A DNA stretch of 64,000 bases from Echinostoma caproni (lineage: Eukaryota; Platyhelminthes; Trematoda; Plagiorchiida; Echinostomatidae): positions 7,838 through 71,837 of the forward strand of contig UZAN01039469.1 of NCBI GenBank assembly GCA_900618425.1, in the 5' to 3' direction. The notes under the pieces were generated by a model, which saw only the letters and a program-made list of their open reading frames with translations, ran no database searches and was not told the origin of the DNA. Made by a program: the position numbers and the translations under genes. Shown piece by piece: positions 1,830-58,853 of the stretch. Within the stretch, counting starts at the first letter, position 1. Each line of letters starts with the position of its first letter.

Positions 1830-2144
1830 ATGTCCACGAACTCTCGCGTACAGTGCATGTTTTTCCTATCATGCTTTGTTTTACTGACCTTCTTTCTATC
1901 TGACTCCGTGCAAATGTCCCTGGCTCGGCAAAGAAAATTATCTCATTCGAGAGGCCGAACGGAAGTACAGAGTCCGTCATCCAACACAAATGAGAGGAAA
2001 TTGGACGGGCAAAGGACATTGGAAACTGTCTTCAGTCCAAAATTGGTACGTGTACGTCGCCAGTCAGACGAGGGGGAATGTGAAGTAAAATGTCACTGGA
2101 GTTGTCGAGGAACGTGTGTGGAAATTTGCTATCCCCTCTGCTGA
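1830..2144 (+). CDS. Secreted cysteine-ladder prepropeptide 1 (unrecognised family)
   Basis: A complete 104-residue single-exon frame. Residues about 8-26 are hydrophobic (FFLSCFVLLTFFLS) and fit a signal peptide. A basic, Ser-rich linker follows (27-73), then a furin-type site RVRR at 74-77. Cleavage there would release 27 residues beginning with Gln78. This mature part carries six cysteines at 84, 88, 92, 96, 100 and 104, exactly every fourth residue, and its last residue is Cys. The core reads CHWSCRGTCVEICYPLC. A TATA-like box lies about 80 bp upstream and no intron is needed. The same C-terminal block recurs in the gene at 58530, which argues strongly that both are real. Function is unknown: a secreted peptide hormone, host-directed effector or disulfide-rich defence peptide is possible. 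I do not recognise the family. The ATG chosen is the first in frame and places the signal peptide correctly. Confidence 0.75.
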   Translation: MSTNSRVQCMFFLSCFVLLTFFLSDSVQMSLARQRKLSHSRGRTEVQSPSSNTNERKLDGQRTLETVFSPKLVRVRRQSDEGECEVKCHWSCRGTCVEICYPLC

Positions 2145-3221
2145 GCACGGATAACACGCGGACGATCAATCAAGTATCGGCACAGCTGAAGCGTGTCCCC
2201 GTAAACACGCATACATATGCACACATGCTTGTCTCTGCAAAAACACTCTGTTTGTATACTGGTAATTTTTGGATAAATAGTTCACCATGTATTATTGTTG
2301 CATCTTTTCCTGTTTATGTTGGCCTTTGGTCAAAGTCACAAACTGCGCATTTAGATGTGAGTAAGTGTGAGTATTTTCAATTGACCTGTTTGTTTGTTTT
2401 AATAGGACAATTTATCAGAGTGAGAGAAAACTGTCAAACAGTTCAAAAAATACATTTCAAATAGAATATAGAATGTTACACAAGATCGTTTTAAGTTATT
2501 CGTAATCACACCAATCAATTACAACAATTTTATCACAGTGTTTGTATAAATATATTTCAGTACTGATCTATAAAAAATTGTTTTGGGAAAGGAAAAATTA
2601 ATATCATGATTTACTTGAGGCAAATGACGCCTCCAGAATTATTGGATCTGGCCTTTACTACGGATAAGAGCTGTGCATAACTTCCCCTTCCATGTCGGGT
2701 CGAATCTGTGATGAGAGTACTACCAATGAGTCAGATAATCGTCAGAAAATGCTTCCGTGAAATCGGTCTAGTTTCCAAACCTTCTGGTTAATGTTAGGCA
2801 GTCTGTGTGCAAAGAGTCCATTTCATTGATAAAGCCTCCGAGTGACTGTAGCCAACTCCTGGTTGATGAAAGCACGGTCAGTATGAAACAACAATCAGAT
2901 CCGAAACATTCTCGTCACTGACCGACTTCTAATCACGATGGTAATAAACCCACCACATATTAGATTTATTTGCAAGTTTAGAGGAACAGGACCAAATCGG
3001 TTACAATCAGATCTGTATTACAGTCATCAGCTTGCAAAACGTTATTACCCAATCAGTTTAGTGTAATTTCCTTTTCCCAACCAGCTTGAATTATCTTGCA
3101 TTACCAGTCTCCACTTGTCCGAAACCTGTATGGAACGGCTGATCTGTTGTTATACGTTTCACTGTTAGGTTCATTAGTTATATTTATGGGTCACACTTTG
3201 TTGTTTGTTTTCGTGCTCCAA

Positions 3222-3241
3222 TTCCTTTCNNNNTTCCTTTC
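3222..3241. other. Four-N join with a duplicated 8-mer on both sides
   Basis: TTCCTTTC occurs directly before and directly after the NNNN at 3230-3233. Confidence 0.9.
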
Positions 3242-3770
3242 ATCGAGGCATTTATGTTTGGTATTGCAAATAGGAAACGGATGGTTGCAAATTCTCACGA
3301 AGGCTAGTAACGCTCGGCCTAATGAAAAAAAATGTGCTGGACCATGGTTTACCTGAAATTGTAGTTTGCTAGTTCCATGGTGCTGTTCTATAAGAATGTT
3401 TTCCTATACATATATACTTGTATTTGCATTCATATATCTCGTGCGAGCTTCATGCTTACAAATCAAATAAAGGCACTGCGCTACCTGGGAACGAACTTTG
3501 GCGAGTGACGAACAAGTTCTCTGAGGCAATGTTACGGGTAGAAAGAAGGGTAAATGGAGAGGGTTTGGTTCGGAAGACAATGAGCTGAACAAAGGTTGGG
3601 GTCTCTGAGCAGTAGCCCACTTTTCACTACCTACCCGGCTTGATGCAATGGACAGCGCGGTCCTGGTACTCCTGCGCAACGACAGATTCACTATGGATAC
3701 ATTTTCTGTTTGTGTATGCATTAGAGTTTGGTGGGTGTCCAGGGTGTCTAGCCACTAAGCATGAGAACCA

Positions 3771-3813
3771 TTAGGGTTCTCGTCAAAAGCGTTTAGTTCT
3801 GACGAGAACCTAA
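3771..3813. repeat. Inverted repeat (hairpin)
   Basis: GGTTCTCGTCA (3776-3786) and TGACGAGAACC (3801-3811) are perfect reverse complements around a 14-base loop, and the arms extend a few bases further with one mismatch. No T-run follows. The flanks show no coding sign. Confidence 0.6.
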
Positions 3814-4997
3814 CCGCAAGGCAGCGGGTGAAGCTACCTGGAAGCCAATTTACTTGGATCGATTACCCCATCACGTTTTATCAACTGGAAGTAAAATTCT
3901 AGTCGAATACTCAATGTGGAGGACCAGTAGACTTGACCTCGTTTGACCTATACCCATTGACCTGCCAGGCATGATACAATTTCGTGGCTTAACAAAGGCC
4001 CTCCTGTGCAACTCGTTGGGTCAGAGAGATTCATAAGCCATCACACCACGTCCAGGTGCATTCTCGTTGTGATGGCGAAACGATCAATGCCAATCGAGAC
4101 TCAAAAGTTCCAACGAGGGAGTTCACCATACTGTCAAGCGAACCAGCGATGAGTGAACTGATGCCAGAGCACACATGTACACAGGTCAGTGCAATGGATG
4201 GATGAGAATCAATCCGAATGAGATTAAGCGACGCGATACGATGACCAGAGGGCAGGATCAGTCGAACCATATCAGGGTTAGGGACAACGGTCACAAGACG
4301 GAGGAGATAAAAGAGTTTAGCGGGAGAGCACAGAAATGGAGTCATTCGTGGAGAACAAAAAGTGCATGTCAAGTGATCGATAATACGCACAGGTCAAGAC
4401 ACTGATATATGAGGGAGATGTGACCAAACAGATTTGTGGGTGAAAACATGTGGAGGGTGACAAACAGATTCAACACTACCTGCGGGCAGCCGGCACGGCT
4501 TTAGCTAATGTTTCACTCGTTACAACACCCCATGAGCTCAATCCCACGGGAAAATGGTGCTATTTACTCTTGCCATAATCTCTGATGCCAAACCCAGGTA
4601 TATCCTACTCACTGGCGGTGTGAATAATCCTCATTAAAACTTAGCAAGTGGAGCGTTCTGTGTCGGTTCAAACGTTTTCACTTCCCTCTCGCTTCCCTCT
4701 CACATGCTGTGTTGATAAATGCTCTTGTATCCAATGCCGCCACAAGTTGTTGCTCAAAAACACCTGGGAGTAATCAGGTTTACGGAGGAGTGGCTTGATA
4801 GATATTGGGAGAATCTGAGTTTACTCAAAACGGGATGACGCCGAACAAATCGATGCTTGCTGATCATCTCTTTGAGGACTAAATTAATTTTGAGGGGCAT
4901 GATAGCTTCAGTGGTTACGTTGATAGGTTTAACCTCTCGTCATGAACAGCTACAGGGGTCGCACTTCCTCAACCAGCTTTTGTTTATGTGATTAATC

Positions 4998-5460
4998 CTA
5001 CCTCCAGTGCAACCATAGTGGTTGGTACTTTTCGACGCATGTCAGGGACTTACGAACCATTCTCTCAGCCTGTTCATCTTCCAGCGAGGGAGAGACCTCT
5101 TCAAGTTGGTCTGCAACTTTCATTTCAAACGTCCTAAGAATATTCGACTCGTTCTCGATCCTAGACTTTAGGCAGCTAAAGGAACACGATCGTTCGAAAG
5201 GTTCATCCGTTGTTCCGAATAACACCCAATCAAAGACAGTCTTCGTTGGAAACAGTTGTTCTGAAGTTCCAATTCGCCGATCTGGAGATCAATGGGTTTC
5301 CGGTGTAATCGTACCTGCAAGTCTGAGATTCCACCAAACTGAACGCACTTGAGATATGGCCAGTGGCTTAACCGGGATGTTTGTAGAGACGCCTTCTTCA
5401 CTGAGAGTTCGTCCAAAGTAAATGCACGCTCCACCTCATCCGTATGACCTCCGCTCAAAT
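4998..5460 (-). pseudogene. BEL/Pao retrotransposon pol remnant (protease to pre-RT region)
   Basis: Read on the minus strand in two or three frames, this matches the stretch between protease and reverse transcriptase in BEL/Pao elements. First comes VERAFTLDELSVKKASL, then LSHWPYLKCVQFGGISDLQV (family pattern: L-x-H/W-P-x-L-K then D-x-x-V). A frame change leads to KTVFDWVLFGTTDEP (family pattern: T-x-F-G-W-V-L-F-G). Finally SLEDEQAERMVRKS and a Y-x(4,5)-L-x-W-R end occur, as in the segment just before RT. The RT itself is absent: the homology stops near 5000. Frameshifts and in-frame stops show a dead copy. Confidence 0.5.
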
Positions 5461-5473
5461 TTGTACTTTGAAA

Positions 5474-5926
5474 TTAACACTTCTCCGTCGATCGATTAGA
5501 CTCACAACTACATTGGGGATCCGAAATTCTTAGCGACCGTGTTGAAAAGCAATTTTGTGTCGGAAACATTCTCCAGAAGGCATATGTTTCTTTGGAGCCC
5601 TGGGAAGATAGAAAGTATTCAACTGAATCTGCAAGTGTCAGCATNCTCCCCTCAGTTATTATTTCCCTGACCAACTGCAGTTGCCTGCTTCTAATTTCCA
5701 ATTTCCTCCGTTCTACTTCAAGCTGTTTGACCTCCAAACTTGTTATATCTCGATGTGTACATAATCCGTTACCGTAGCTTTCTATACCCCAATTAGTCTC
5801 CCGAGCCGAGCCCAATAAAAGAGTACGGGATGAATCCTGCTTAATCAAGTGTTCTACTACTATGAGTGAGTGAACGATGGCATTGTTGTCCAGGAAGGCT
5901 TTGTAAGGACCAGATTGTTCCAACAT
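5474..5926 (-). pseudogene. Open frame with a coiled-coil segment next to the BEL/Pao remnant
   Basis: A 150-residue minus-strand frame directly upstream of the pol remnant. Its middle contains a charged heptad-like helix (LEVKQLEVERRKLEIRSRQL), typical of the N-terminal part of BEL/Pao Gag proteins. One unknown base (N at 5645) lies inside. By position it may be a Gag fragment of the same element, with the rest of Gag deleted. Alternatively it may be an unrelated chance frame. No zinc knuckle is visible. Confidence 0.3.
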
Positions 5927-7548
5927 CCGTCATTTACTCCGTGTTATTGGCAATAAATCCAAATTGGCTCAAGGGAAAAAGGATTTGATTTTTGTTAAAT
6001 CTATTTTCTGTTAAAGATAAGTCTTCTCTCAGACTACGCAGACAATTTACTCTGTCACAGACAAATTGGTTTGACTGTAGATGAATCCTAACTTGGGGAC
6101 AGCAAAAAACCATGCCAAAATTTGTGATAATTTGTGAGTTCCAGCCAGTTGACTGAAACATCGGTATCGAAGATTAGTTTTAGATCCGAACAGACAAACA
6201 TGGATTACATTTTCATCAAATTGGGCTGGTAGTGTTGACGTAAAGGTTTGTTAATTGCACTTACTGTCTGCTGTGCGTAATTTATTTTGTCAACCAGTGA
6301 TAAGAATTACTTACTGATGCTCTTTTGAAGGCTCATTAACGAAATGTGACCCAAAAGATCATGACTCCTAATCGCGAGGCTAACAATGTTCTGAGCGTGT
6401 AAAAGCTCACATCCGATCTGTTAGAATTACCAGTAAGGAAGAAAACAGATGTGTCCGTCTTTTCCAACTCAGATGAATAAAGCGTATTCAGGTAGGAGAT
6501 TAACTCCCCAGAATTACAGTCAGGAGTTATTTACAGATTTTAAGTGATAATCAACGAATGGCACAGGAGAAAATGTGGTTTATATTCCACAGTCATAAAA
6601 GAATGGTTTCATGTTCAAGGAGGGAATGTTCATGTGGCGGAGCTGCATCGGAACTGGTGCACATCTGTGACTACATCACAAAATTTCATTTTCCATTGGT
6701 GGTGGTCTATTTGCACGAAAAAAATAGAAGTTTTCAATTTATAACAGTTTGTAACTGATAAATTATTGTGAACAAGAGTTTTGGTAAAGCAGAAAGCAAG
6801 ATTTGGAATATTTCCCGTTGTGTGTCAGAAGGCCGATGCCCGATAACTTTGGTTAGTTGATCAGGCGACTGACGACAAAATGATAGAGAAACCAGTGATC
6901 TCTGTTTCTGTGTTCTGTTGCAGCTTTCCAATCAGCGTTTAATTCCCGAACTGAATTCAATGTGTCGCGTTCCTGCATTGCATCTACCTGTATGCGTAAG
7001 GGGTCTAATTTTATGCTTTTCCTGTTATTAACTGCCGACAAACGTTACAGAAAACTGACGTTTTTGTTGGTGAGTTGGGTTGTTCTCCGAAGTAATTGGT
7101 GAACCTAATTTGGATAGTAAACCGAAGGTGTATGTGCATAAAATGCATTGGTACCCTACCACATGAAACACCCTGTGGGTTGAACCAAACGCACCATAAC
7201 AACTGGTACTGAAAAGTAAACTATTTCACTTCTGTAGGCATATTCTGGTGTTACACAGAGAAAGAAATGCTTACAAACAAATAAATAAAACATGGTAATT
7301 GTGAACGTATGCGAATTTCTAGAAGTAGCGCAGCGGTGAAACCTACGGAGTTCGCAAACGACCTTTAAGGCAAATTGCAGTTTCCTCATTTACTCTCATG
7401 GAGTGAAAATCCAGATTGGGATTTTTTTCCAAGCGAATCATAACCCTCCAGGTTTGTGCCTGAAACGAACGAATTACGAAAGCTGCCAAATGCGAACAAA
7501 TTTGGGTTGTCGGTATAGACTGTACAAAAAAAAACAGTCCGAATAATA
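5927..7548. other. Non-coding stretch
   Basis: Short open frames on both strands without recognisable domains. The missing 5' part or LTR of the BEL/Pao remnant should lie here if present, but no terminal repeat was seen. Confidence 0.4.
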
Positions 7549-7630
7549 ATGACCTGGTGATCAACCGGGTAGTATGCTTACCTGCTACCTGTGAAGTTTT
7601 GGGTTTGATCTTCAGTTGGATCAGCGGATT
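7549..7630 (+). mobile_element. tRNA-derived SINE-like head, family C, copy 1
   Basis: GGTGATCAACCGGGTAGTAT resembles an A box and GGGTTTGATCTTCAGT a B box, 40 bases apart, in a tRNA-like arrangement. The same order, GGTATGCTTxC then GTGAxGT then a B box, occurs on the minus strand at 20060-20146. Confidence 0.35.
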
Positions 7631-8262
7631 TTTACTGTTGATGAGATATAAAGATTTCCGAGTAGCTGTCTCGTGCTTCTAAGTTCCCCAGTTCACTGTT
7701 CGTTTGTTTTATACAAGACGGAGTTTACCATATATTGCTATATCAACCTAATCTGAATTTGTAGGGTTTGAGTGCATATTTAATACAACAAGCATTAATA
7801 TGAGAATAGTCGTTTAAACATGTACTGCTTGCACGGACAATTACATTATTATAATATTGGTTCCGGCGGAATAACCTCCAGAAATCTTCATTTGCTACTC
7901 GCCCAAAAGTCACCGAGATTTTCAAACCTGATAGCCTGAATACTAGTCATAAAAAACGTTGAAACATCGTCAAAAGATAACAATCTGTGCTTCTGAGTAT
8001 GAATCAGTCATGGTGGTATCAGAACTATGGATAGCGCAATCATTTCAATTGGCAGTGATACACAGCGGTCGAGAGAATGAGAATCAGGAACAAATAAAAT
8101 GTGTAACGTTTCGATTGAATAAAAAAACAATGGAAACTATGTGGTTGCCCGAAAAAAGGATACGAAGATAAAGAAAACCCACAATGACAGTGTGATCTTC
8201 ATTAGTCGACTGCCATACACACGTTTCTAGATCTCGTTTCAAATCGTAATGATAGCAATATC

Positions 8263-8342
8263 AGATAGATAGATAGATAGATAGATAGATTGATTGATTG
8301 ATTGATTGATTGATAGATAGATTGATTGATTGATTGATTGAC

Positions 8343-8406
<64 letters not shown>
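8263..8406 (+). repeat. GATA/GATT tetranucleotide microsatellite
   Basis: Compound tract: GATA units, GATT units, a short GATA return, then a long GATT run with one GACT interruption. The apparent protein frames over it are translation artefacts. Confidence 0.9.
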
Positions 8407-9393
8407 GAAGTTGTTGCAACTCTTCTTGGAAGAACGGACTGGAGAGGGAGAAATGAAAGCCAGTCAATTTGCGGAACATGGAACGACATGTGATACTAAA
8501 TAGTTTTTTTTATACCTGAATCCCAATTACTCAGATGGTCCTTTGTGATGAATGAATCCCAGTAAGATAATACCTAAAGACCATCAATATAAATCTGATC
8601 ACGGAAACGATCTTCAGTGCCAGAACCTTGCTTCGAAACGTTCACATTCATGATAGACGAGATCAAATGAGTACAAACATCATCACTATCTCTTTTAACC
8701 AGCCCCAGACACCTAGAAGAGTATAATAACATTGTAAAAATCCTCTGCAATGTTTGTCACGTGACAGTAAAGATTAAGTGTTTTATAGTTTCCACAAGAC
8801 CGAGTTTGGGGAGGAGACAGTACTTGATGTACACAGTGCTGGATATCGGACAAATAACGGTTCCAGTTTCACCTGATTAATGTAAAAACACTGTTTTGAA
8901 AATTCCAGTACGTGATTGATCGACAGATAAGACCAGACAAACTTATGTCATAAATATTGTCTTCAGCTCCCAGATCTTTTTAACGATCAAACAAGTGGAA
9001 CGGCACAGCTGATTTTACGACAAATCCATCAAACCAGTTTATACATGTACACAATTCCATATAAGTTATTTCGTTGCAATTTATCCCCTAAAAAGCCAAA
9101 TTTAAGATAATTATGATATACAGAAAGGGCAGCTGTTATATCTGGTGACTTATATCAGATATTTTGACGAGCCACCCAGGAGATTTTGTGAATTGGTTAT
9201 TCGAACAATTTTAATTGTAATAACTCTGTCCCTTCACAAGTCAAAACTAACCGCACTTGAGCCTGATAACAGACTGAAAGCCGTTGAAAATTGCAGGAAA
9301 TTGCAAATCCACCTTCCTTATCATCGAAGACCCAGGATGCATATCTATACTTATAAAAATGTATATATGTATATACATATGCCGTTATATATA

Positions 9394-9428
9394 GCCAGGA
9401 TGACGGCTGTAACTTGTCGAAACGTCAC
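9394..9428 (+). ncRNA. Short hammerhead-like motif of the minimal retroelement type
   Basis: CCAGGATGACGGCTGTAAC (9396-9414), then TTGTCGAAACGTC (9415-9427). A four-pair stem (CGGC with GTCG, one G-U pair) sits between a near-core ATGA and GAAAC, followed at once by GTC. Minimal retroelement hammerheads look like this. No coding part is adjacent. Confidence 0.3.
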
Positions 9429-10850
9429 ACAGTCAATATGTGACACACCGAATGAATGCACTTTGAGCTAATTGATCTGCCTAGTCCGGGCATTGCACTT
9501 AGACACGCCGGTGCACAAGGAACAACTGAGGTTTCGTGACTGAACAACCGGGTAGTGATTTTCACAAGTTTATCATCAGAATGACGCAAACCACAAATGT
9601 TATTTTTTCAGCCTATCCGTTCAGTTTGAATCATGTGATTGCTTGTAATCACTCGGTGTGTGTCGTAAGCGACTACGAATACTGACCACATACGTCACGT
9701 CACGTAGGCTATTTATGCGAGTATGCGAACAATTTAAAAAATGTCAATGTATTTGCATAATTGGCTATAATGCCGTTTAAACCGGGGACTTGGTGATGGT
9801 ATTGATTTACTTGATTGCTCATCCGAATCTGAAGCTAACTGATAAGGAGCCAGTAGAGAATACTAAATGCTAATAATTCCATAACAAATCTGTTATCTAC
9901 CTGTTGTTACTGTTGTGATCATTGTGAATCATTGGCACTCAAATGTAATTGTATCGAAATATCGTTGTGTCTATTGGAAGTAACTGAGGTCGACCGGAGT
10001 TTGTTTTGGTCCATTTGATCGCCCTAAGGTGAAATCCAGCGAACAGCCTCAATGTAAAATCTAAATATCATTAAAAGTGATACCGTGACGGTTTGGCGTT
10101 TTACTATTGAACTGATACTTTACCCAAGCACCAAACTGCTCGATTTGACTGTATGTGGGTATTTATAACATTTCGTTTTGCATGCATTACTTGCCTTCTA
10201 GATAAAAGGAATAAAAATCCCGGGAGAATATCTGTCAGGGAATTGTTCACAAAAGGAAACAGTCTTGCGCTGAAAAAGCAGCATCCATCAGTTGCTCAAA
10301 TTGGCAGCCGTGAACGCTTCCACCTGAGCCGTGTTTAACCGCAGCAATCATCCTGATAAAACACTGTGCTCTTGAGAAAATAGGGCACCGGATAGCTTTT
10401 CCATTTCTGTTGTAGCTTGGCTGCACAATGAGTATTTTAGTGTCCGTTCTAGGAATGTGGCCACGGGTTTTTCGAGTTTAGATTCTTGATTCCTATTCCC
10501 GGATGGAAAAACTCATTGATAACTTCACACATAAGCTGACTATTTATATCGTTTCTCTGCAGATCGTTCATGAACGTTTGAATAGCATTGCTGTGAACAT
10601 AAGTAAGCGATTTATCTAACCTATCAATGGAACGCTTTTAATGCACGTCTCTCACAGAACATGCGAGAAAACACACTTTTCCTTCTTTTACAGCACCGAT
10701 TTTGAAGGCCACAATTGGAAACTATTTTGGTCAGGAACAAACCCATTGGACAACCGAATACGCAGTATTGGAAGCACAGGAAATTTGCCCAAAACACAAC
10801 GATTTGGTTGTGCGATTGGCAAAAGCCACATTTTGTCCTAAGAAACTAAA

Positions 10851-10872
10851 CACTGAACTGAACTGAACATTT
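10851..10872 (+). repeat. CTGAA pentamer tail, likely relic of a LINE 3' end
   Basis: ACTGAACTGAACTGAAC resembles the tail of the RTE-like LINE at 52138-52164. No coding part is left upstream. Confidence 0.35.
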
Positions 10873-11875
10873 AAACCGGAAATGAATTAAACATCCTTTC
10901 ATTTGATGATTGATTCACATAGACAGACCAACAACAGCTTTGCAGTTCCACTTCTATTGCCTCCATTGGCGACCGATTTTGTTCCAGTGAATAACTAGTT
11001 TATTTGGATTAAATTTTTTCTTCTTTCTCCAAAGTTTTCAGCTCATTCAAATAACCGGGACTGGGCTGGATTCAATATTCGCTTTGATTGAAACACATTG
11101 ATGATGACGGTTAAGACGTCGGACCCAAAAGAATGAAGAACTGTTGGGTTATCTCAGTACCAATCAGCTTCTGTCGCACCTGACCAAGAACACAGAAGAA
11201 CTATTGGTCAGACGATATCTCACGTGGAAATGAGAATAGGTTACGGATAAGACAGTGGCCAATGAGACTGATTAAATTTATCTTCTCCAACAAGTCCAAA
11301 ATGAGTTCCAGAAGATTCGAGGATTATCCTGCCAAAAACGTTGCCTTCCATACGCTATATTCTATGCCTAAATCATTAGTGTTGTTTGGTTCAATCGATC
11401 GATCGCCAAATTGAGTCCACGAAATAGACCGAAAATATGGCATTCATGTTTCATTTCTATCAGCACTCAGCACACAAAAACCTTCAACGATATCAGATTT
11501 GCTCATCGTGGTCGATTGTTCGCAACGTGAAAACCAATGTGTTTGGTGTCCAGCAGGGACAAATGCCGAGACAAACGGCGTGCTTTGGTTACATTCACAG
11601 CTACCTTGAATCTGAATGAATACCATTCTCTGATAATTATGTGATATGCATGCCGCAAAACATGCAAACACAGAATGCCGATATCATCAATAATCTCTGT
11701 CGAATTTGGATCACGAAAATGGATTCATGATTTGCATCAAGCAGGGAATGAACGGTGAAAATATGTATTCCGAATAACTGTGTGCTGACACTAGGCTCTT
11801 AGCTGATCATAAATAAACAAATTACCGCAGTCACTTCAATTAATCGACTGGTGGTTCACACTAGACTAATGTTGG

Positions 11876-11880
<5 letters not shown>

Positions 11881-11930: not shown

Positions 11931-11941
11931 GGTAGGAAAAC

Positions 11942-12622
11942 TGTAACACCCCTGCAGCTGCAGTCCCAATCAATTCACAGTTTTCGTCGCAGTCACACAT
12001 CAATTCGTGAGATTTGCACAGACACCCACAACGAGAAAACAAATACATCAAACACGAACTGCTCTATTCTGGATTTATTAAACAATGGGAGCAAAACTAA
12101 TTCACAAGAAAACTGCAAACACTTTACATGTCCAGATTTGTCTACCAAAAACACTAACACATAAAACTCGCTGTTTCAAACTCATACAGAACTGACGAAC
12201 TTTTCATTCACTCACGGCTACCGGGTCCGAAAATGACTAGACAAAAACGAGCACCCAGTCAGGGAATTGTGGTGTTTGTTTTTTTCAAGCGACACAGTCT
12301 GTCCAGACCAACTTTAGACATCAAAGACGATTGGTCGGTCAAATATAGCACACGATTTGTTTTCTATCATCAAAATTCAACGTACGGGTCACGCGTCCAC
12401 ATTGAATGTGCCCCCGTGCTGTTAGTTTTGATGTGTCCGTTCTTGTCACAAACGTTCTTCGTTTATCGATATCCGCATCATTGTAAATTCACGGGTTTTG
12501 GGCCGGGAATCCTGTTAGTAGGCCGAGTGAGATTTTGTCGAGCAAGCAAAACAACAATAATCAAAACAACACGGAGCCACGTATTCCATTCACGGTCAGC
12601 TTTTGACTGATATAGCAGTAAT
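11942..12622 (+). mobile_element. LTR of a Ty3/gypsy-type retrotransposon (left copy)
   Basis: The unit begins TGTAACACCCC and is repeated, inverted, at 25854-26523. The central part (about 11950-12588) is almost identical to the other copy: across the 101-codon reading frame they share I saw only two changes. Beyond 12588 the two copies differ much more but still align. Just past the LTR, 12622-12640 is a degenerate version of the primer-binding site seen in the other copy. No gag or pol follows. The open frame inside the LTR (12233-12610) is probably not a gene. Confidence 0.6.
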
Positions 12623-15745: not shown

Positions 15746-17309
15746 CAAAGTTTCCAAACGTTTACTCTGGACGTTTTTTATGACGCATCGCCTTCGATGC
15801 AATTTGATCCAAACTTAGTTACAATTCAGTTGTCTATCTTATTGAATAAAATTCTGAAAATGGCAACCAATGGTCTATGGACGCAGTCATGAGTTATTTC
15901 CTTGCCACTCCCGCCGTTGGGAACTGATGTAGCTCAGAGTGAGACTGGGCGGGAATGAGGTCATCCTATTTCCAGTTGTGTGAATAGTTCACGTATTAGC
16001 AAGATCCGCGCACATTTTGAAGTCCCTCCAGGGACATGGTTGACTGTAGTTACTGAATGATTTTCGACGTTTGGTTAAAATCTGGTATCAGAAAAATTGA
16101 CAAAAGGAAAATATTGTGAAAGTTGGAGGATAGCCCAGTGGATGAGGTTCAAACTATTACAGTTTTCAAATTTCCAATATCTTATCTTGCAGTATCTTCG
16201 ATTTTCTCGTTCGTGTGAATGCTCTGCTCGTGCTGCAGTGCTGGAAAATTAATTTGTCCCATTAAAGTCAACGTAATACATCCAGCACTGAGCTCAGTGG
16301 AATGCAATATCAACAATATCAATAAAATTACGGATGCAAGTGTGAACGGCCGTTGGTGGTCCGGTGGTAATGTCACCTAATTGTCACCCCGGGTGTGTTT
16401 GAATCCCACCACCAAAGAACAAGATTTCTCATTTTGTGTTGAATGACAGCCAGCCCCTTGATTGGCTGCTTCTCCCTTCCTGGAAATGATGTATTTGTAT
16501 ATTTATTAAAAGGAAGTAAAAATGGAACCAAATAAAATATATAAAAAACATCATTATAGATCAATATAGAAAGAAGACAAATGCCGCGAGATGTCAACAT
16601 TTCGTTTAATCTTCCTAATCGCTGACCTAAAACAAACAAGCATGTATATAGCATATGAGATTAATCAATTATAGTGAACGAACGAGTACAAGCATACAAA
16701 GATGACTAAATATACAAGTAGAAGATCAACTCCACGGTAACTGGATTGATTGTATCAGAAACGTTTGTGCGCATAAGCTCGGGTGAGGAAATCGAATAAA
16801 CACTGCTCCACTAAGTGCCAAGAGTTTACCAGTGCGATTACGTAAAAGTGGTTTGAAAGACAAATTGCGGTCAACTGTGTGTCTTGTTTTCTGGACATGT
16901 TTTGTGACAGGTGATCCTCGATTTCTTGTAATCACTTGACCATGGGCTATATTTATATGCCTTTTGTTCAAATCAGCGAATGAGAAGAATAAACGAACTG
17001 TTAACATCCCGCGACATTTGTCAGCTGTATTGATGAAATACTTCAAATCCTTATAGATGTAAGAACGACCTGTTTTCATTCTGCCGTAGCCTAAGCGCAA
17101 GCGACTGTTCTACACTATATCTGTATAGTTTCGATAAGGCCATTGAGCAACCGGTAGCTAAATGCGAACTCCAAATAGTGATGTGAAATGCCTTTGGTAC
17201 TGTTTGTTTTAATTAAACAAGCCAAAATCAGCGTACTTCAACAGTGAGGTTCAGACGCTATACAACCAAATGAGTCTCAAACAATTGAGCAGTAATCTGG
17301 TTTGAAAAG
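15746..17309. other. Unassigned sequence around SINE family A copy 1
   Basis: No further feature recognised. The 5' part of the Penelope-like element is not visible here. Confidence 0.4.
16350..16490 (+). mobile_element. tRNA-derived SINE, family A, copy 1
   Basis: A tRNA-like head with an A box (TGGTCCGGTGGTAATG, 16357-16372) and a B box (GTTTGAATCCCACC, 16397-16410), followed by a body containing GCTTCTCCCTTCCTGGAAA. Head and body both align with the minus-strand copy at 19705-19855. Confidence 0.5.
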
Positions 17310-18860
17310 TAAGTAAATTCACAAAGGGGACACAAATTATTAATGGTCTAGAACTGTGCCTTACTTCCACATATTTTACATTCAAGCACACATTGTACAG
17401 ACAGATTGATGGTGTCGCAATGGGTTCTCCTGTATCACCAATTGTTGCCAATCTTTTTATGCACTCTATAGAATCAAAAACCCTCATTGAACTTAGGAAC
17501 CCCCCGCGTCTATGCATCAGATACGTCGATGATACTTTCGCAATCTTCAAGTCAGATCAAACGACAGATTTTCTTCATTGCTTAAACAATCAGTGTGACT
17601 CGATAAGATTCACGACGGAAACCGAGAACTCAGAGAGAGTCATCAACTAGATTGTCTAGATTGTCGTGTGAAAATCAGTGAATCTCATGCATTCCAAACA
17701 GGCATCCATAGAAAACCAACCTACTCAGACCGATATTTGAATTTTGATTCTGCACATCCACGGTGCATAAAACGTTCACTTATCTCGTCACTGGCAAACA
17801 GGGTTAAAAACCTGTGCACCGAGAAGATAATACAAAAAGAAGAAATGCGACGCTTAAACCGGGTACTCCAGGACAACAACTACCCAAAGCGGTTTGTACG
17901 ACACGAGCTTTTCAAACCTAGAAGAACCACGAAAAGCAGGGTTCCAACAGACTGGTTGGCATCTATTGGTATACCCTTCAGATCGGGGATATCTGAGGCG
18001 AAGTCAAAGTCAAAGTTTTATCCTGGGCGTTTTAACAAAGCTAAAGCTTATCATGCTTCATAGGATTTTTACAGAATGTTTTGAATAACTTCACAAAGAG
18101 AAAATAACAATGATAATAATGTGCGTGATTACTCACGGATGTTAAAATTTTAAGTGTTCCAATACTTTATCAAGTTGCGATTTAAATAGTTCAACTGTAG
18201 GAGCACACACTACATCAGATGGGAGAGAATTCCATGCGCTGCACACTATGACTGCAAACGAGTGATACCGGCAATCAAGGTGGCTGTTCTGGGTCTTCAC
18301 CTTTAGTGGATGTCCCCTGAGGTGATCATTATGAGATAAGGTCGACAGATAACGGCAAGGGTGTCTGGGTTGATGCAGTATGTGATATGGCAATCAGAAA
18401 TATCATCGGTAGTTACAACATCCGGGTTTCCTTCCGGATAGATAGCACACTTCAACAAAAGCTGTCCAAGGTCAAAGATCCAATTTAGATGCAGGATCAA
18501 AGAAACTGCATCTACAAGATCAGTTGCAAGGATTGCCAGCAGAATATATTGGACAAACGTGCAGACAGCTGGAAGTGAGAATCACGGAACACCGAAGAAA
18601 AGAAAAATTGAGACCAACTAATGCCACGCAGCTCAACAAACTCGAACGAGATTCGGTAATCGCACTTCATGCCATTGCTGAGGGACATCGTATCGATTAA
18701 GAAAACACGAAAATTCTCCAACGAGGTTCTCGAACAAACACCGAGCGCCTATACGCCGAGGCTTTGGTAATTAGTGCCCATCCTAGGTGTACAAACCGAA
18801 ACGACGGGGCAGGAGTTTGGAGCATCTGGACAGCGTTAATATCACTTGCCAGCACTCGTC
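17310..18860 (+). mobile_element. Penelope-like element, RT plus GIY-YIG endonuclease, interrupted
   Basis: A degenerate retroelement. The RT is entered near 17350 (LELCLTSTYFTFKHTLYRQI), then shows DGVAMGSPVSPIVANLF and the catalytic YVDDTFAIF. A frameshift near 17645 follows, next to a 9-base direct duplication (CTAGATTGT twice). After it comes QTGIHRKPTYSDRYLNF, a Penelope hallmark, and WLASIGIPFRSGISEA. A LINE fragment interrupts at 18001-18390. The element resumes with NIRVSFRIDSTLQQKLSKVK, a stop, then CIYKISCKDC and, after a one-base shift, EYIGQTCRQLEVRITEHRR. The last is the GIY-YIG nuclease core. It ends near AEALVISAHP...NR. Several stops make it inactive. Confidence 0.85.
18001..18390 (-). 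mobile_element. CR1/L2-like LINE 3' end nested in the Penelope-like element
   Basis: On the minus strand the frame at 18393-18142 shows the C-terminus typical of CR1/L2-type LINE reverse transcriptases: LRGHPLKVKTQNSHLDCRYH, then VCSAWNSLPSDVVCAPTVEL and FKSQLDKVLEHLKF before the stop. A 3' UTR of about 140 bases ends in GGATAAAACTTTGACTTTGACTT, a short repeat tail typical of LINE 3' ends. The insertion separates the SEA and IRN residues of the host element, which read on directly across it. It is a 5'-truncated copy. Confidence 0.75.
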
Positions 18861-25853: not shown

Positions 25854-26523
25854 AACTATTACCACATCGGTCAAACTTGACCTTGACTGAAATACGTGGC
25901 TCCGTGTTGTTTTGACTATTGTTGTTTTATTGGCTCGACCAACGGATGAACAGGATTCCCGGCCCAAAACCCGTGAATTGACAATGATGCGGATATCGAT
26001 AAACGAAGAACGTTTGTGACAAGAACGGACATATCAAAACTAACAGCACGGGGGCACATTCAATGTGGACGCGTGACCCGTACGTTGAATTTTGATGATA
26101 GAAAACAAATCGTGTGCTATATTTGACCGACCAATCGTCTTTGATGTCTAAAGTTGGTCTGGACAGACTGTGTCGCTTGAAAAAAACAAACACCACAATT
26201 CCCTGACTGGGTGCTCGTTTTTGTCTAGTCATTTTCGGACCCGGTAGCCGTGAGTGAATGAAAAGTTCGTCAGTTCTGTATGAGTTTGAAACAGCGAGTT
26301 TTATGTGTTAGTGTTTTTGGTAGACAAATCTGGACATGTAAAGTGTTTGCAGTTTTCTTGTGAATTAGTTTTGCTCCCATTGTTTAATAAATCCAGAATA
26401 GAGCAGTTCGTGTTTGATGTATTTGTTTTCTCGTTGTGGGTGTCTGTGCAAATCTCACGAATTGATGTGTGACTGCGACGAAAACTGTGAATTGATTGGG
26501 ACTGCAGCTGCAGGGGGGTCACA
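25854..26523 (-). mobile_element. LTR of a Ty3/gypsy-type retrotransposon (right copy, inverted)
   Basis: Inverted, near-identical partner of 11942-12622. On the minus strand it starts TGTGACCCCCC. Near its 3' end it carries CCAATAAAACAAC, which contains a polyadenylation signal and replaces a different sequence in the left copy. A primer-site-like sequence follows directly. No element body was recognised beyond it, so this is a solo or strongly truncated LTR. Confidence 0.6.
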
Positions 26524-45238: not shown

Positions 45239-45556
<318 letters not shown>

Positions 45557-50571: not shown

Positions 50572-50857
50572 CACCGGTGGTGGTGGCGCAGTGATTCAGT
50601 CGCTGTCACCGACGTGCTCTGGACCCTGTGGTCCGAGGTTCGAGTGCCGCCACCGCCACCCAGCTTTGGTGGCAGGAAGCTTTGCCATCGCCCGGTTCCA
50701 TACCACGCCTGACCCAGCGGGGCCTTATGTGGTTCACCACTCCAATTCCCGGGGATCATGTTGCCGATTACCATCACTGAATAGTAGGTTCTCGTGACAA
50801 TGGGTTCCTCTCCGTCTCTTGCTCATCACACACTGGTGTGTAATAAAACAAAAACTT
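50572..50857 (+). mobile_element. tRNA-derived SINE, family B, full-length-looking
   Basis: Box A TGGCGCAGTGATTCAGT (50584-50600) and box B GGTTCGAGTGCC (50637-50648) sit in a tRNA-like head. A GC-rich body follows (TTTGCCATCGCCCGGTTCCA and CACCACTCCAATTCCCGG), and the unit ends in GTGTAATAAAACAAAAA. A partial copy of the body is at 15476. The head is less decayed than in family A, suggesting a younger insertion. Confidence 0.6.
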
Positions 50858-51239
50858 GATGCCAGACTAGCTTAGACCTTTTGTTGATAAAGCAGGCACC
50901 TTTGCTGGTTCAGTGCAATGACCTCCGGCAAACATAGTGGCCGCACACTCAAATTCATTCCTACTTTAGGTACAAAGAGATAGATCATTCCGCAAGTAGA
51001 ATGCGTTCAATCACAGATTTGTGCTTTTGTTCAAATCTGGCAGCGAGTGATCGATGACGTGTGTGTTATTTAGGGCTGTTCAATAACAGTTGAAATGTTT
51101 GGATAAGATACATATTTCTGAGAATGCAATTCATTATTCGTTCTGTGTTTAAACGCAGTCATAGTTGTGTGTGTACAGGATTACCTGGAGTACTACTGAT
51201 CGCGACAACTGGATACACGTTGGAACTTAATTATCTAAG

Positions 51240-52164
51240 AACCCATATAGAGAGTCAACAATCTCTCTCTATAAACTCTGGATAGCTTGAATACCAGCGT
51301 AGCCCTGTTCGGTATGCCTTTTGCACATTCAAAATGTAAACTGCTACTACAAGACTGGGTTGGTCCAGCACCCAAACTCACTGTAACTAGGGAAGTAATA
51401 GAACCAGTGGATAAGCTACATCTCATCCGGTCGATGCAAGACGGATGAAATGTGGGCTCGCATACAGAAGGCTGGGTTGGCATTTGCCGATTTGAGACAC
51501 CTGTGTCACCGTCGCGACAATCGGCTGTCTGTGAAGAGTCGAGTGTATCCTGCAGCAGTTCGTCTAGTTCCACTATACGGCGCAGAAACTTGGCCATTGA
51601 GAAAACAGGATAAAGATAGACTGTCAGTGTTTTAATTCCGCTGTCTACTCAGCATTGCACGAATCTGGTGGGGCAACCGAACGAGCAATGCTGAGGTTAG
51701 GCGCAGAGTTTTGGGAGAAAGTGGTCTACCTTCATAGATAACGTTGTTTGGGGCGTGTTACGCATGTCACCAGATAGGTTGCCACGGCGCGCAGTGTTTG
51801 CCCAGGCAGGTAATGGGTGGAAAAAAGCCGAATGTGATCAAGCTAAGACCTGGCACGAGGGTTTGAAATCCATAACCAGGGGTAGGGGTCACATAGATCC
51901 CGTTAGGCTCCCTGGCTGGGGACCTCGGGATGATCGCAACTGACAGTTAGAGACACTGAGTGTTATGGCTGGCGTTCGTACATCTCAATTTCTTTGCAAT
52001 CCTAGACCACTGAAATTCTCCATTTTCTGTTCGACTCTACTTGTAACCTTCCTGTCTTCCTCCTATTCCTCATCCAGATGGGCAGCCAAAAGACAACAAA
52101 CAAAACCGGCGCACGAAGTTGCATAGTTAATGGTTGTACAAACTGAACTGAAACTGAACTGAAC
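51240..52164 (+). mobile_element. RTE-like LINE, 3' part of the reverse transcriptase and tail
   Basis: A 5'-truncated element. Read across frameshifts it shows GMPFAHSKCKLLLQDWVGPA, YISSGRCKTDEMWARIQKAG, then FADLRHLCHRRDNRLSVKSR and LVPLYGAETWPLRKQDKDRL. After a stop come IARIWWGNRTSNAEVRRRVL, LRMSPDRLPRRAVF and WHEGLKSITRG with PGWGPRDDRN. This is the C-terminal domain common to RTE-type elements in flukes. About 200 bases of 3' UTR end in a CTGAA-type pentamer tail (52138-52164). Stops at 51633 and near 51737 show it is inactive. Confidence 0.85.
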
Positions 52165-55100
52165 AAACTCTCGAGGAGTGCAAACAAAACTCAAAGAGCA
52201 ACAAGTAGACTTTACTACATATGAATTCACATAAGTTTGGATAAGCACATGCCATCATGGGCATGGGTCGCTGAACATCAAACATGTAGCTCAAAGGTGT
52301 GTGTATCGAGGGTTTTCTGTTAGAGTCCTAACAATGACAAACATAGTGCGCATTGTTGATAACTCTCAACGGTGGCAAACCAGAAGCACTTCTCTTCGTT
52401 AACTGCCACACACACAAATCTCAATAGATAAAAATATTGATTCTTTATAGTTAACAAAATACGGGAGTCGTAGAGGAAAAAATGTAGTCAGTAAACACTT
52501 GGCATAAATTTCCAATTATAGCAATGGGCTTTCCAATGTTGGTTTGCATCCGAGTGAAGAAGACATTTCAAATAAAACTGGCATTCCTTTGTAACAAAGG
52601 CAGTGACTCATATGCACACAACACAACAACTGGGGAGTGGAAACTGACCGAAACAGAATCCAACCTACGCCTACTTCCGGTTTATCGCCTATCCTTTTCA
52701 AGTTCAAACGAGGTTGGTAAATAACAACAAAAAACACAAGAGACCCGGATCAAGTTCATTTGTGCTTACTGCCTAACTAAACAAATCGCGTGCATAAAAT
52801 TGTATCACATATGAAATATTCCTCTGCCGTTTTTTATTATTCCTGTAACCAGTAGTTGATTAGTTAAGAACACGTCTAAACAATACATCTATCTCAATGT
52901 TATTGCCGGAAGGAGTCGATTCAAGTTGGACAATATATGGCTGTCTGTGTGTTTGACACAAAAACGCTATTGTTCCATTGACCATCAATGTCATGTGCGT
53001 GGTTAGAACACGTGACTGTTTGTTTTACCGTGCTGTTTGAAATCGATACGACTCGCAGTACCAACTACCAATCTACATGAGATCAAAAAGTATTGTTTTT
53101 TCTCCACTATTTCCGATGTTCACTTGTAACGCGATTAAAACACCAGCTAAAGGAGAGAAAGCTCAACAAGTCATTTGACAAACGTGTCGGCTAACAAATC
53201 AACCCAGTAAATACTGACTAATCATGAAGGAATCCTGTTAGAGTTACTCGTTTTTGGCATTAGGCTCCTGAAGGGGTCCACGATGACGAGATCGGTCTGC
53301 GTAAAGAAAAAATACATTGGATGTGTAAAGTGTGAGTACAACTATCTTCGGATTACCCTAAAAGCCATTGATCAATAATAGGTAATCAAAAATATTATTA
53401 TAAGGCTTGTTTCAGAGTGGATCAACGCTTTCAGATAGTAAGGGGGTACAAGCTATAGCTTAGAAGGAAATTGGAATACGAATGTGAAATGTTGAAATCA
53501 AAATAAACCGAAACGAGACGGGGGCGTCTTAATTTCTCCCCATTTTCGTTGGGAACTATTTAAAAGACTGAGAATTACAGCAAGATTAATCTCCCTGAAA
53601 CCAGATATGCAAGTCGGAGACCTTAATAGGGAGGCTGAGTTTAACTATGAAAGAGTCTTGTTTTAGATGATGCTAACCGGTTGACGTACAACGGGCACAA
53701 CATCCGGATGAAGGCTATTATGTTCTGCATCCGCAATTACCATGGTTACCTATTTCAATAGCACCAAGTATTATCTTGCTTTTATGTGCCATATAATATA
53801 ATAAAAATTGCACATTGGTACAGTACATTTACAGGAAAAGGGTTGCTGCTAACTAAATGCTGTCTGGGGAAACAAAGAAGAGGAGAAGACTAGTGGCGGT
53901 GACAGGATTTGTTCTCTTGACCTTCGGGTCAATGAACCGGTGGCCTGAATCGTTTGACTATATCAAGATCGTGCACAACACACGATCCCACCAAGAATCA
54001 AACAAACAAAGGCCTCTAAAGGAACTCACGAAACAGATCTGTTCTCGACCGACTAGATCAGAAAAACCAAATTTATCTATTTGATATTTCGTGAAGTTCA
54101 AGTTTCGGAACGTCATACCTAGTTACTATTGTCACCCATCTGAAAATGGCCCATTCAGCTTTCAAACCTAGATTGAAAACTTCAAGAATTAAAAGGATTT
54201 TCTGTTGAATTGCTACTGAAGATCGTTTGGTGATCATCCTTTTCGGTTGTATATATATTTCAATTATGTACATTGGTATACTTGTGTCTCATTCCAACAC
54301 TTTACTTTAATGACGAAAACCTCCAAACAGCCTAGTTCCACTAAGTGCTATTCTGGTGTATCAGAATAAAATCCTGTTACAACTTTATCACTGAATACCT
54401 GCTGTTCCCTTATGCGTTCACGATCTTCAAAATGTGTTTCGTGCAAGAATGATGATCCGGTGAGTTGTCTTCTCCATTCTCTGAAAGCAGTGAGGGAAGA
54501 GAAGGAATTGGTTAAATGCGTTGAAATCAATCTGGAAATTTATCAGCGGAATGGCTCAACATTATCACAGTCTGTAGTTGTATGGCACAGACGAGTAAAT
54601 AGTGAAACAGCATACAGACAGACAGTCCACTTAGATCAACGTTTCTTCTCGTTTCGCATCATCGGATTGACATAGGGCGCAGCTTCAAAAGGAGACCGAA
54701 AACCAATTGACATTTTGGAATGTGAGATGCACAACGACAGAGCAGAGTTAGTTATTGTTCAGTTAGATCGAACGAAACGCACATACACACACATTTTCGA
54801 TTTGACTGATCGACCCCGAACAGGCATAGTTATTATTATTCCTGTTCATGATTGGGTTATGCCAAAACCCCGGGGATGGTGAATGACAATAATAACAATA
54901 ACAACAACAACAACAACAACAACAACTCGAAACGACGGTTATTTCAGCTCGTATGAACCAAAACAAGAGAATCCGGGATCAATCCTCCTGTGATGTCTTT
55001 ATTTTACTGAAATATTGTTTATTGGACAACACGGTGGCTATTTCTTAACCCAATGACATCATCGCCAGGTTTGAAATAAAGCATCATGTCCGAGGTAGGA

Positions 55101-57659
55101 TGAGAAAACAGAATGGGGTTTTCCAGATAAGGAGTTGGGATAGTGTGGCAGTACAGGTGTTTAATGCTTCCGGGGATGATACCGGTGTTCCATGTCAGTT
55201 AATATTCCTCTCTGTCTTTCATTCCGGAACTAACAACAACAACAACAAGGTTAGCTTTTTGGAGCAATTATTTTTATCCACATCAGCTCCGCATGTATTC
55301 GATGGGTCCCATAGATCATAAACAGGTTCCAATCTAACGGTTATACGTTTTTCGCTTGATTCGGTAAACATAACTTAATTTACACTGTTTTTCACATCGA
55401 CATTGTTGTAGGCCGATAAGTACCTTCTTGCAAGCACTGTGAAAAGAAATCGATTCAACCCCTGTAAAATAATAGCAGTTCGTTCGATTCAAGTCACTGA
55501 GAATAATCAAAATCCTTGCTCGCTACCTAACGGTCACGTTTGAATGCAAATCACTATGGTTATCACAGGATTCACTAGCTAATTGTTAACACGTTTTTGA
55601 GATGCGAGCACAATATTTCAAGTGGCCTGCACCACGTGGCATACTAAATCACATCGGTAAACCCAAAGCTCACAACTATTATAACTGTAAACAAAATGAT
55701 ATGACAGAAAACGGAATGATTTAGCAATTATCGTACTACACCCTCTTAAGTCGATCAATAAATAAATTGGGTGATAACCTTACAGAGGTCAATGACCACA
55801 GTTATCTGTTTAAAAATGCCCCTGTTTTTGTGATATGGGATAGGCTGTGAAAACACTGTGGTTTCTGTGGTCCTCTGCTTCCAACATGAGGTAATGTGAT
55901 TCTTGTTCGAAACCGCTCTTTTCCTAGCTCACTAATGCACATCACATGAACCACTCAGAACAATTTGGTTCTCTTACAACGTTGTATTCATTTGTTTTAT
56001 GTAGATTTAGGCTGCTATGAAACGTGTCCTAGTTAGCCACTCGTGCAAACGTGTTCCTTCATATGCCATAAGCAAATCCGAATAGGATTGAGTCTCGCGT
56101 AACGCGTTCGCGATTGTGACTGAAGTGAACACTGGACGCGTACATTCACTATTCGAACAGCAAACAAAAACAGGGGCTTAAATAGCACTTGGCTGTGATT
56201 GGGATAACTTCCGCCGACCATTCGTGTACAAAATTTCCTGGTTCTAGCAAATTCACAATGAGACACAACATTCAAAAGATAGTTCGAACACTTCATTGCT
56301 TCCCAGTTTCCCGGTCGTTTTCGATTACTAGCAAATGGCACTTTGAGCAAGATCACTTCTATGAAAAAAAGCTTGGGAGGAATAAAATATTGAATGCAAT
56401 CCCTTTCACCGTTCGAGATGCTCGCAGTGGAACACTCGATATTTCATAACCGAAATCTGAGGAACGATGCCCCTAAATTTGGGTTTATACATTCTTTCGG
56501 ATACACACTAGCCATTCATCCTCACATTTGTGCCCTGAATTATTTAATTGCAATATTTAAAACGCGGATCTGGTTTGCTATTCTCAAAATTCGATTTCTA
56601 GCTTCAGGAGAGCTCAACAAAATAATCAACATTCAACAGACACGAATAAACCTATAGTTCTGGTCGGATGTTCGGCGTGTACGGTAAGAAATACAGCCAA
56701 TCCAACAACTGTACTCGGCTGCTTTCGCAACCCCAATAGTACAAATCGTGGTAACCTTAAACACGTACGTTATCGCTAAGTACTATTACGATAGAACTGC
56801 TTTTCAGACAGTTCAAAAGACAACTTATTAGCAACGTTATTTCAGGTTTATTTCCCCAATAAATTATTTCTTTACGCGAGTTTAAACCGTATTTGAAAAA
56901 AAAATTTACCAACTGCAAGTAAATATCTGACTACACAAGGTCCTCAAGATGTTTGGATATGGTTTATACCTTCTCGGTTCACTCGAACCAAACATCGTCA
57001 GCTCTAATCTATCACCGGATGTATTCCGATGAATCCAGCTTGGTGGGAATCGGGACTGAGATGCGGAATAGTGGTACATAAAGGTTTGCCCTGTCTCATT
57101 TGAAGTACGGATGGGTTGAATCAATTGGAGATCACGTTTGGGCTCTAACAGGTAAAATACACGAATGTTAAAAACCTGCAAGGGGTGTCCAGGGCTAACC
57201 TAATTTTGACATCAAATGTTCTGTATTCTATAGAGGTACTGCACTATTTTCTTCAGTAAAACTATCCACAACTGTTTAATCCTTATCGGTCTTAGGGTGG
57301 TTTCAAAAAGGCATGTAAGTGGAGAGTAACTGTCGGGAAAAAAGTTTCAACATGAACAAGCAGCTGAAGCAATGACATACCTTTAAAATACTGTGTTTAT
57401 TCCAATAGATCGATCCCATATGATTTGATGCAACATATTCCCGAGGGTGACGAATACTCTCTCGTACATTGACACGTTTCGGACATGAGTAATCTGCTGC
57501 CGATCACAGTTTTCAGTCCAAATTGCTTGAACTGGTTCAAACAGCTCAGTCACAAATTGTCCTTTTAGTCGGTCAATTCGGGGTCATCGGAGAATGTCGG
57601 AGGTGTCGGTCCTTCGTGCACACAAATCGGGTCCGGTTAGCCAAGGCAAGCGCTTGCCG
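52165..57659. other. Unassigned sequence
   Basis: AAC tracts only; no coding family recognised. Confidence 0.35.
54895..54926 (+). repeat. AAC trinucleotide tract
   Basis: About ten AAC units; a shorter run occurs at 55231-55248. Confidence 0.8.
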
Positions 57660-57785
57660 ATACGACCACACACATACACACATACACACATACGTACACA
57701 TACACACCGTCGAGGGCACACGTACACACGAGCTCAAAGATGCACACATCCAAACACACACATAAGCACATACACACCAACCACG
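57660..57785 (+). repeat. CA-rich imperfect repeat upstream of peptide gene 2
   Basis: ACACAC and ACATAC units interspersed with other bases. Open in several frames because of composition only. Confidence 0.7.
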
Positions 57786-58181
57786 ATGACAGCGTCAAAT
57801 AGGCACACAGGTACGTACAAATGAGTGAGTGAGTGCGTCAGTGAATTAAGCGAAATGAATGGGCGAACTAAAGGAAGGAAAAATTTCTAATCGGCGGCCC
57901 TGGCGATTGGAACCCCGTGCCGTGCGAAATCCGGAATACCATGGAGAGCTGGTGAGTGAGCGAGAGCGCACAGCCTACTAAAACGAAGCGCGAAGTGTGA
58001 CACACATCAAGGTCTTGATGATTTGTGCAAAGCTGTTGAATTTTTCAGTGTGTGCTTGTGTGTTTGCTGATACGTGATTGATGTGCACTGAAATCGATCC
58101 ACCCCCAGGGTTCGGTGTTGATCGCACGGCTTCCACGATAATCTTCGACGCAACGCAAACTATGGAGTCACAGACACACAT

Positions 58182-58376
58182 TCATTCATTCATTCATTCA
58201 CGATCAGCTTACTGATAGCGGTGCCCAAACACAATCATACATGTGTATGAATACTCCCAAACGAATGGCACGCATCTGAAATGGAATGACATACGCTGAA
58301 CGTTCACGGACGGACGGACGGATGGACGAACGGACAGACACACACACACACACACACAAACAACACACACAAACAC
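58182..58376 (+). repeat. Short ATTC, GGAC and CA tracts in the promoter-proximal region of peptide gene 2
   Basis: ATTC units at 58184-58199, GGAC units at about 58309-58335, and CA units at 58337-58376. The CA tract ends about 60 bp before the TATA box. Confidence 0.75.
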
Positions 58377-58435
58377 GTGTGTGGTTCCTTGGGGCACGAC
58401 GGTTCTAGTTTGGCCGCACCGAGCACCGTCAACTC

Positions 58436-58443
58436 TATAAAAG
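58436..58443 (+). promoter_or_regulatory. TATA box of peptide gene 2
   Basis: TATAAAAG is a textbook TATA box, 94 bp before the ATG at 58530. A CTCAGAT sequence about 20 bp further on could serve as the initiator. A CA microsatellite (58337-58376) ends about 60 bp upstream. Confidence 0.6.
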
Positions 58444-58529
58444 CGATCGGAACTTGCTCAGATCAACTTACCTCCAAACAATCACAGACTATACACATTA
58501 TCGTTGCATCATAGTCCATCTGATTCACA

Positions 58530-58853
58530 ATGATCTCACTTCAAACTGCCCTCTTACTTGGAATCCTGTACACACAACTATGTCCATCCGAAACAGCTGC
58601 TATCCCGGCCAAAACAGTCCTATTCCAAACATCCAATTCCGCTCAACTTCGCACGAAACGATTTGCCCAGTCGCATCGGATACAATTTCGCGATCGACTG
58701 CTCAGTCCGCTGAGCCGAGCCACCCCGGTGAACACAATCGAGCTGGAAAAGCTGCAAATTTTCAAAGGTGCCGGTGCCAAATCCGACGAATGTTTCAAAT
58801 GTTTATGGAGTTGCAAAGGTGGTTGCGTCTACTCGTGTTATACAATTTGCTAA
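58530..58853 (+). CDS. Secreted cysteine-ladder prepropeptide 2 (paralogue of 1830-2144)
   Basis: A complete 107-residue single-exon frame. Residues 1-23 form a clean signal peptide (MISLQTALLLGILY, then a likely cleavage at ETA|AIP). The linker has a basic site RTKR at 41-44 and several single Arg or Lys residues, but no dibasic site directly before the cysteine block. Six cysteines lie at 88, 91, 95, 99, 103 and 107: the first spacing is CxxC and the other four are CxxxC. The core CLWSCKGGCVYSCYTIC aligns with gene 1 at every Cys, at WS, at [RK]G, at V after the fourth Cys and at Y after the fifth, and the protein again ends on Cys. The preceding SDEC matches SDE-GEC in gene 1. A TATAAAAG box lies 94 bp upstream. 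Outside the C-terminal block the two precursors do not align clearly. Function is unknown. Confidence 0.78.
   Translation: MISLQTALLLGILYTQLCPSETAAIPAKTVLFQTSNSAQLRTKRFAQSHRIQFRDRLLSPLSRATPVNTIELEKLQIFKGAGAKSDECFKCLWSCKGGCVYSCYTIC

Follow-up and report, generated by a model that had tools for sequence, protein, structure and literature searches.

Two short genes for cysteine-rich precursors

A 64,000-nucleotide stretch of the trematode Echinostoma caproni genome (contig UZAN01039469.1, positions 7,838 to 71,837; hereafter the window) carries two short genes whose predicted products are small, secreted-type proteins ending in a dense block of six cysteines. Gene 1 (1830–2144, + strand) is an uninterrupted open reading frame (ORF) of 104 residues plus stop, encoding precursor P0001, and gene 2 (58530–58853, + strand) is an uninterrupted ORF of 107 residues plus stop, encoding precursor P0002. 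A sequence-only reading of this DNA had placed two same-strand ORFs of about 105 residues at these positions, and the coordinates, stop codon included, are correct. Its description of both products as secreted-type precursors with a conserved C-terminal cysteine block is likewise borne out by their hydrophobic N-termini and by a block alignment score beyond that of every shuffled comparison.

The N-terminus of each precursor resembles a signal peptide, judged by hydrophobicity (1830–1907 in gene 1 and 58530–58601 in gene 2, both ends approximate), with best 12-residue Kyte-Doolittle means of 2.63 and 2.03, respectively. A search for the motif R-x-[KR]-R finds a single furin-type site in each precursor, RVRR at residues 74–77 of gene 1 (2049–2060) and RTKR in gene 2 (58650–58661). 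If RVRR is cut, gene 1 would yield a 27-residue mature peptide that begins with Q and has a net charge of −3 (2061–2141); if RTKR is cut, gene 2 would yield a 63-residue chain with a net charge of +4 (58662–58850). The block lies at the very end of each product, followed directly by the stop codon, and reads Cx3Cx3Cx3Cx3Cx3C in gene 1 (2079–2141) and Cx2Cx3Cx3Cx3Cx3C in gene 2 (58791–58850). Because the first spacing differs (x3 in gene 1, x2 in gene 2) and all later ones are x3, the most N-terminal cysteine aligns only across a one-residue gap. The earlier motif thus describes a real block with six cysteines in each gene, but as written it holds five, the sixth being the one that aligns across the gap.

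Generic coding signals say little about these genes. The window holds 18 ATG-to-stop ORFs of at least 104 residues, so ORF length is no evidence for either gene, and the guanine-cytosine (GC) content by codon position shows no bias in gene 1 or gene 2. Consensus matches to a TATA box occur 86 bp upstream of the gene 1 ATG (1744–1753, + strand) and 94 bp upstream of that of gene 2 (TATAAAAG, 58436–58443, + strand). Since similar matches occur nearby too, two downstream of gene 1 (2545 and 2569) and one downstream of gene 2 (59210), these boxes lend weak support to short intronless genes.

Similarity of the two genes

The strongest link between gene 1 and gene 2 is the block itself. Its local alignment score of 78 was reached by none of 2000 full shuffles and by none of 5000 in which the cysteines were held fixed (maximum of the latter, 70). 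With the preceding E included, the two sequences share 13 residues across 22 aligned positions, and at 5 of these 13 the two genes use synonymously different codons. The two blocks can be regarded as homologous, or as held under very similar constraint. The alignment upstream of the block scores 26, a value reached by 856 of 2000 shuffles, so detectable homology is limited to the block. Between the two genes, the nonsynonymous divergence (dN) is 0.34, and the synonymous divergence (dS) is inestimable (returned as −1).

Both genes lie on one contig and one strand of a 426.5-Mb genome assembled in 12,689 contigs, which supports an old tandem duplication. Blastn of the two gene neighbourhoods gave no sign that a duplication extends into the flanks: of its two short matches, which span 37 and 19 bases, neither covers the genes. 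The pair probably descends from an old tandem duplication in a small fluke family that is lineage-restricted. The similarity of the blocks favours the paralogy proposed earlier, though the block is the only region that carries it and the protein search with gene 1 returned no relative.

Orthologs of gene 2 and conservation by region

A search of about 5.8 billion proteins with gene 2 returned its own entry and two homologs, both annotated as ‘hypothetical protein’: D915_001500 of Fasciola hepatica (75% identity by BLASTP, 75–77% over the whole protein) and FBUS_04129 of Fasciolopsis buskii (71% identity by BLASTP). These uncharacterised orthologs (P0003 and P0004) share with gene 2 the full length, the RTKR site and the identical last 21 residues; as far as compared, they are not orthologs of gene 1. 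A lack of members in related species, which would have counted against the earlier proposal, is thus contradicted for gene 2 by two related flukes, while gene 1 returned zero matches from the same protein set, its own entry included. A profile of four sequences, the two genes and the two orthologs, added none among 262 candidates. As the protein-set search relies on shared 5-residue words and on annotated proteins, absence of the family from other flukes is not established by these results. Its outcome for gene 1 illustrates how easily genes this short are overlooked.

With its orthologs, gene 2 is firmly supported as a real gene for a secreted-type cysteine-rich peptide. A 294-codon open frame (58409–59290, + strand) overlaps it in another frame and extends through the 3′ flank. 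This frame has zero Pfam matches and was rejected as the coding alternative; the orthologs back the peptide frame, and the overlap is probably due to chance.

Among the three orthologs, identical columns number 14/23 in residues 1–23, 14/21 in residues 24–44, 15/22 in residues 45–66, 6/18 in residues 67–84 and 22/23 in residues 85–107. The last segment, which holds the block, is more conserved than the remainder of the protein (22/23 versus 49/84; Fisher p = 0.0004) and than the linker at 67–84 (p = 0.00002). Across all three species the last 21 residues are identical, non-cysteine positions included, an invariant tail that gene 2 shows in addition to the unusual periodic cysteine framework of both peptides. 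All four proteins contain a furin-type motif, and its position coincides in the alignment of the three gene 2 orthologs. The region around RTKR, residues 37–58 (58638–58703, + strand), is identical in 20/22 columns and nearly matches the block, and the fastest part, at about residues 65–86, retains 7/22; both counts were made by hand on the column string with limits chosen after inspection. The gene 2 precursor is accordingly not uniformly fast. The ‘fast-evolving precursor’ of the sequence-only reading finds no support in that form, and its divergence of the linkers applies between the two genes, whose upstream score stands at shuffle level, but not to residues 37–58 among the orthologs.

Further copies and the status of gene 1

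A genome-wide search with C-x-W-x-C-x-G-x-C, a pattern that requires W and G, gave 21 occurrences against 19 for the reversed control, which is the chance level. Two of the 21 continue into Cx3Cx3C and a stop, and these are gene 1 and gene 2. On the contig, over positions 7838–156234 (some of them N; the first 7837 bases also read N), a five-cysteine Cx3C run outside simple repeats is found only in the same two genes. Genome searches with both proteins, both blocks and P0004 again returned gene 1 and gene 2 only. The gene 1 block was recovered by the gene 2 and P0004 searches only at E-values of 1.77 and 3.41, and each block search scored one candidate and missed the other gene. Diverged copies could therefore be missed, and the copy number of two is a lower bound.

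An additional screen covered 317 ATG-initiated ORFs of 50–250 residues in the window and sequences L005–L013 (149,235 bases, with small overlaps), excluding ORFs with X, CVCVC or CCCC. Six combined a hydrophobic start with at least five cysteines near the end: gene 1, gene 2 and four further ORFs. Among the latter, a 61-residue ORF on the − strand of L009 (from 6026) has 8 cysteines within its 45 C-terminal residues, along with a Cx3Cx3C stretch, CHWPCGPIC; after this stretch it departs from the block, and it was taken as a chance occurrence. The other three lack the motif.

These results bear on whether gene 1 works at all. On one reading it is an ORF whose block is a relic or has arisen by convergence, and gene 2 is the only real gene: the protein set returned gene 2 and not gene 1, similarity to gene 2 is undetectable outside the block, ORFs of equal or greater length are common in the window, and codon-position GC backs neither gene. 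Against this, the ATG, signal-like start, furin site, block and stop of gene 1 are all intact, its block similarity was unmatched in 5000 shuffles with the cysteines fixed, and the only 2 full matches among the 21 genome-wide occurrences fall on one contig and strand. A non-working gene 1 is accordingly improbable, and gene 1 is probably a real gene for a secreted-type cysteine-rich peptide, a conclusion that leans on the block.

Comparison with known families and a possible cross-linking role

No described family was found to account for the block, as had been suggested. For P0001, no Pfam family passes its gathering cut-off. The best, DUF2244, aligns to residues 12–99 with an E-value of 0.00035 and 20.8 bits against a cut-off of 27, and YMF19 and TAP35_44 are weaker and also under the Pfam cut-off. 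P0002 has zero Pfam matches. In NCBIfam, no family passes its cut-off for either protein. The cysteine-rich repeat family TIGR04114 (tSAM_targ_Cxxx) has the Cxxx periodicity in common with both proteins and matches them weakly (14 and 13.5 bits, E-values 0.054 and 0.076; curated cut-off 20 bits), although it was built for bacterial and archaeal proteins. Searches of the PDB gave no convincing match (best E-value 0.023), and whole P0002 gave none; the hits to KORA proteins, trimethylamine methyltransferase and RACK1 tails were rejected as unrelated, their aligned stretches being without the cysteine pattern.

The nearest printed framework found is the minicollagen cysteine-rich domain (CRD), CX3CX3CX3CX3CC according to the available text of PMC4863159. 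In the parts available of the sources, the disulfides of these domains are described as reshuffling to harden nematocyst capsules (PMC4863159, PMC4195985), nematocyst CRDs as low in sequence similarity (PMC4863159), and those of group 2 and 3 minicollagens as variable (PMC4195985). The likeness consists of six cysteines within about 20 residues, mostly at x3, in secreted-type proteins that bear a propeptide, and five consecutive cysteines of each block are spaced as the first five of the minicollagen pattern. However, neither block ends in CC, and a reading of P0001 and P0002 shows neither the Gly-X-Y stretch nor the polyproline of minicollagens, in agreement with the lack of a Pfam collagen match. 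The rule for the C-terminal CRD (C-CRD) fold, Val or Ile before the second cysteine and Pro after the fourth in the available part of PMC4195985, is contradicted by K and V in gene 1 (register of cysteines 1–5) and by S and Y in gene 2 (register of cysteines 2–6); the missing C-CRD markers leave an N-terminal CRD (N-CRD) fold possible. The blocks thus appear alike to minicollagen CRDs in spacing alone, fall outside that family and show no sequence match to it.

This resemblance raises the possibility that the block is a disulfide cross-linking module of a tough extracellular layer, such as the metacercarial cyst wall or the eggshell. The five-cysteine spacing fits such a role, keratinized protein is described as part of the Fasciola cyst wall (PMC8632118, available part), and earlier histochemistry cited in PMC11727788 suggested that paramphistome eggshells are disulphide-stabilised. 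The available text of PMC11727788 itself concludes, however, that the eggshells of Calicophoron may lack disulphide cross-links. Beyond the lack of a collagen or proline-rich part and the different terminal cysteine pair, solved structures with such spacing gave no match, and the identity at non-cysteine positions seems to exceed the need of a cross-linker, given the low similarity reported for nematocyst CRDs (PMC4863159, available part). A cross-linking role is therefore unlikely, if marginally less so than a non-working gene 1. In a more specific version, flukes would have evolved a Cx3C mini-domain of their own that polymerises through its disulfides and so hardens extracellular walls, for example that of the metacercarial cyst, while the pro-part prevents cross-linking until a convertase has cut it off; this version has the lowest probability of the possibilities considered. 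Were either to hold, the genes would shed light on the chemical make-up of resistant cysts or eggs.

In the literature, strings with Cx3C-type spacing come by title mostly from cnidarian work, and also from ferredoxins and a cancer ligand. No paper was found containing the locus tags D915_001500 or FBUS_04129, and among the matches listed (titles and abstract starts, supplementary files lying outside the search) none describes the family. The available parts of PMC2867827, PMC9639813, PMC4863159, PMC4195985, PMC8632118, PMC11727788 and PMC5880117 contain no description of a six-cysteine block family. The pair is apparently undescribed, its novelty lying in a new framework within a familiar kind of molecule, a lineage-restricted peptide family.

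A possible ligand or outward-acting peptide

The signal-like start, the convertase-type site and the dense cysteines together point to a secreted, processed and disulfide-bonded product. A signal peptide would take each precursor into the secretory pathway, where a furin-like convertase would probably cut RVRR-Q in gene 1 and RTKR-F in gene 2. The released chain would end in a compact six-cysteine domain, presumably with three disulfides, and the mature peptide may serve as an extracellular ligand with a role like that of a peptide hormone or growth regulator.

The same features also suit a gland or surface peptide directed at host or microbes, be it antimicrobial, channel-active or immune-modulating. 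Many small cysteine-rich secreted proteins act outward on host or microbes, and the two annotated orthologs both come from parasitic flukes. Unlike typical arms-race families, however, the block is invariant in three species and no gene expansion was detected at the limited sensitivity of the searches, and an acidic peptide, as predicted for gene 1, is atypical for a membrane-active antimicrobial. An outward-acting peptide is thus a doubtful second choice. The constraint on non-cysteine residues of the block suggests a specific conserved partner in preference to generic cross-linking or an arms race, and their identity in three species favours an endogenous ligand over its rivals.

Processed, disulfide-folded peptides that serve as ligands for a conserved partner, probably within the worm itself, are the tentative first choice, at a probability of roughly 40%. 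Several observations weigh against it. The predicted mature chains are very unlike in length and charge (27 versus 63 residues, −3 versus +4), an unexpected contrast if both are ligands in a single system. The database search with gene 1 returned no relative, three orthologs are too few to tell a receptor constraint from a fold constraint, and the copy number is only a lower bound, the block searches having missed the other gene. The ordering is soft and would place the ligand ahead of the outward gland peptide, followed by the cross-linker and lastly a non-working gene 1. A ligand function would suggest that flukes have a signalling system specific to them.

Surroundings of the pair

No link between the gene pair and any neighbour was seen in the window. 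ARAGORN found no transfer RNA there, and Rfam gave no match at gathering scores. A Pfam scan covered ten other window ORFs, so the window may also contain exons of further genes; the scan gave one weak match, a reverse-transcriptase fragment at 17306–17647 on the + strand (RVT_1, E-value 4e-6, 27.1 bits against a cut-off of 29.6), which is presumably Penelope-like from its appearance. Two near-identical open frames lie on opposite strands (12158–12607, +; 25930–26307, −) and may represent a dispersed repeat present in two inverted copies. Long tetranucleotide arrays occur at 45245–45555 (TCTA, 78.5 copies) and at 8264–8406 (GATT, 35.8 copies).

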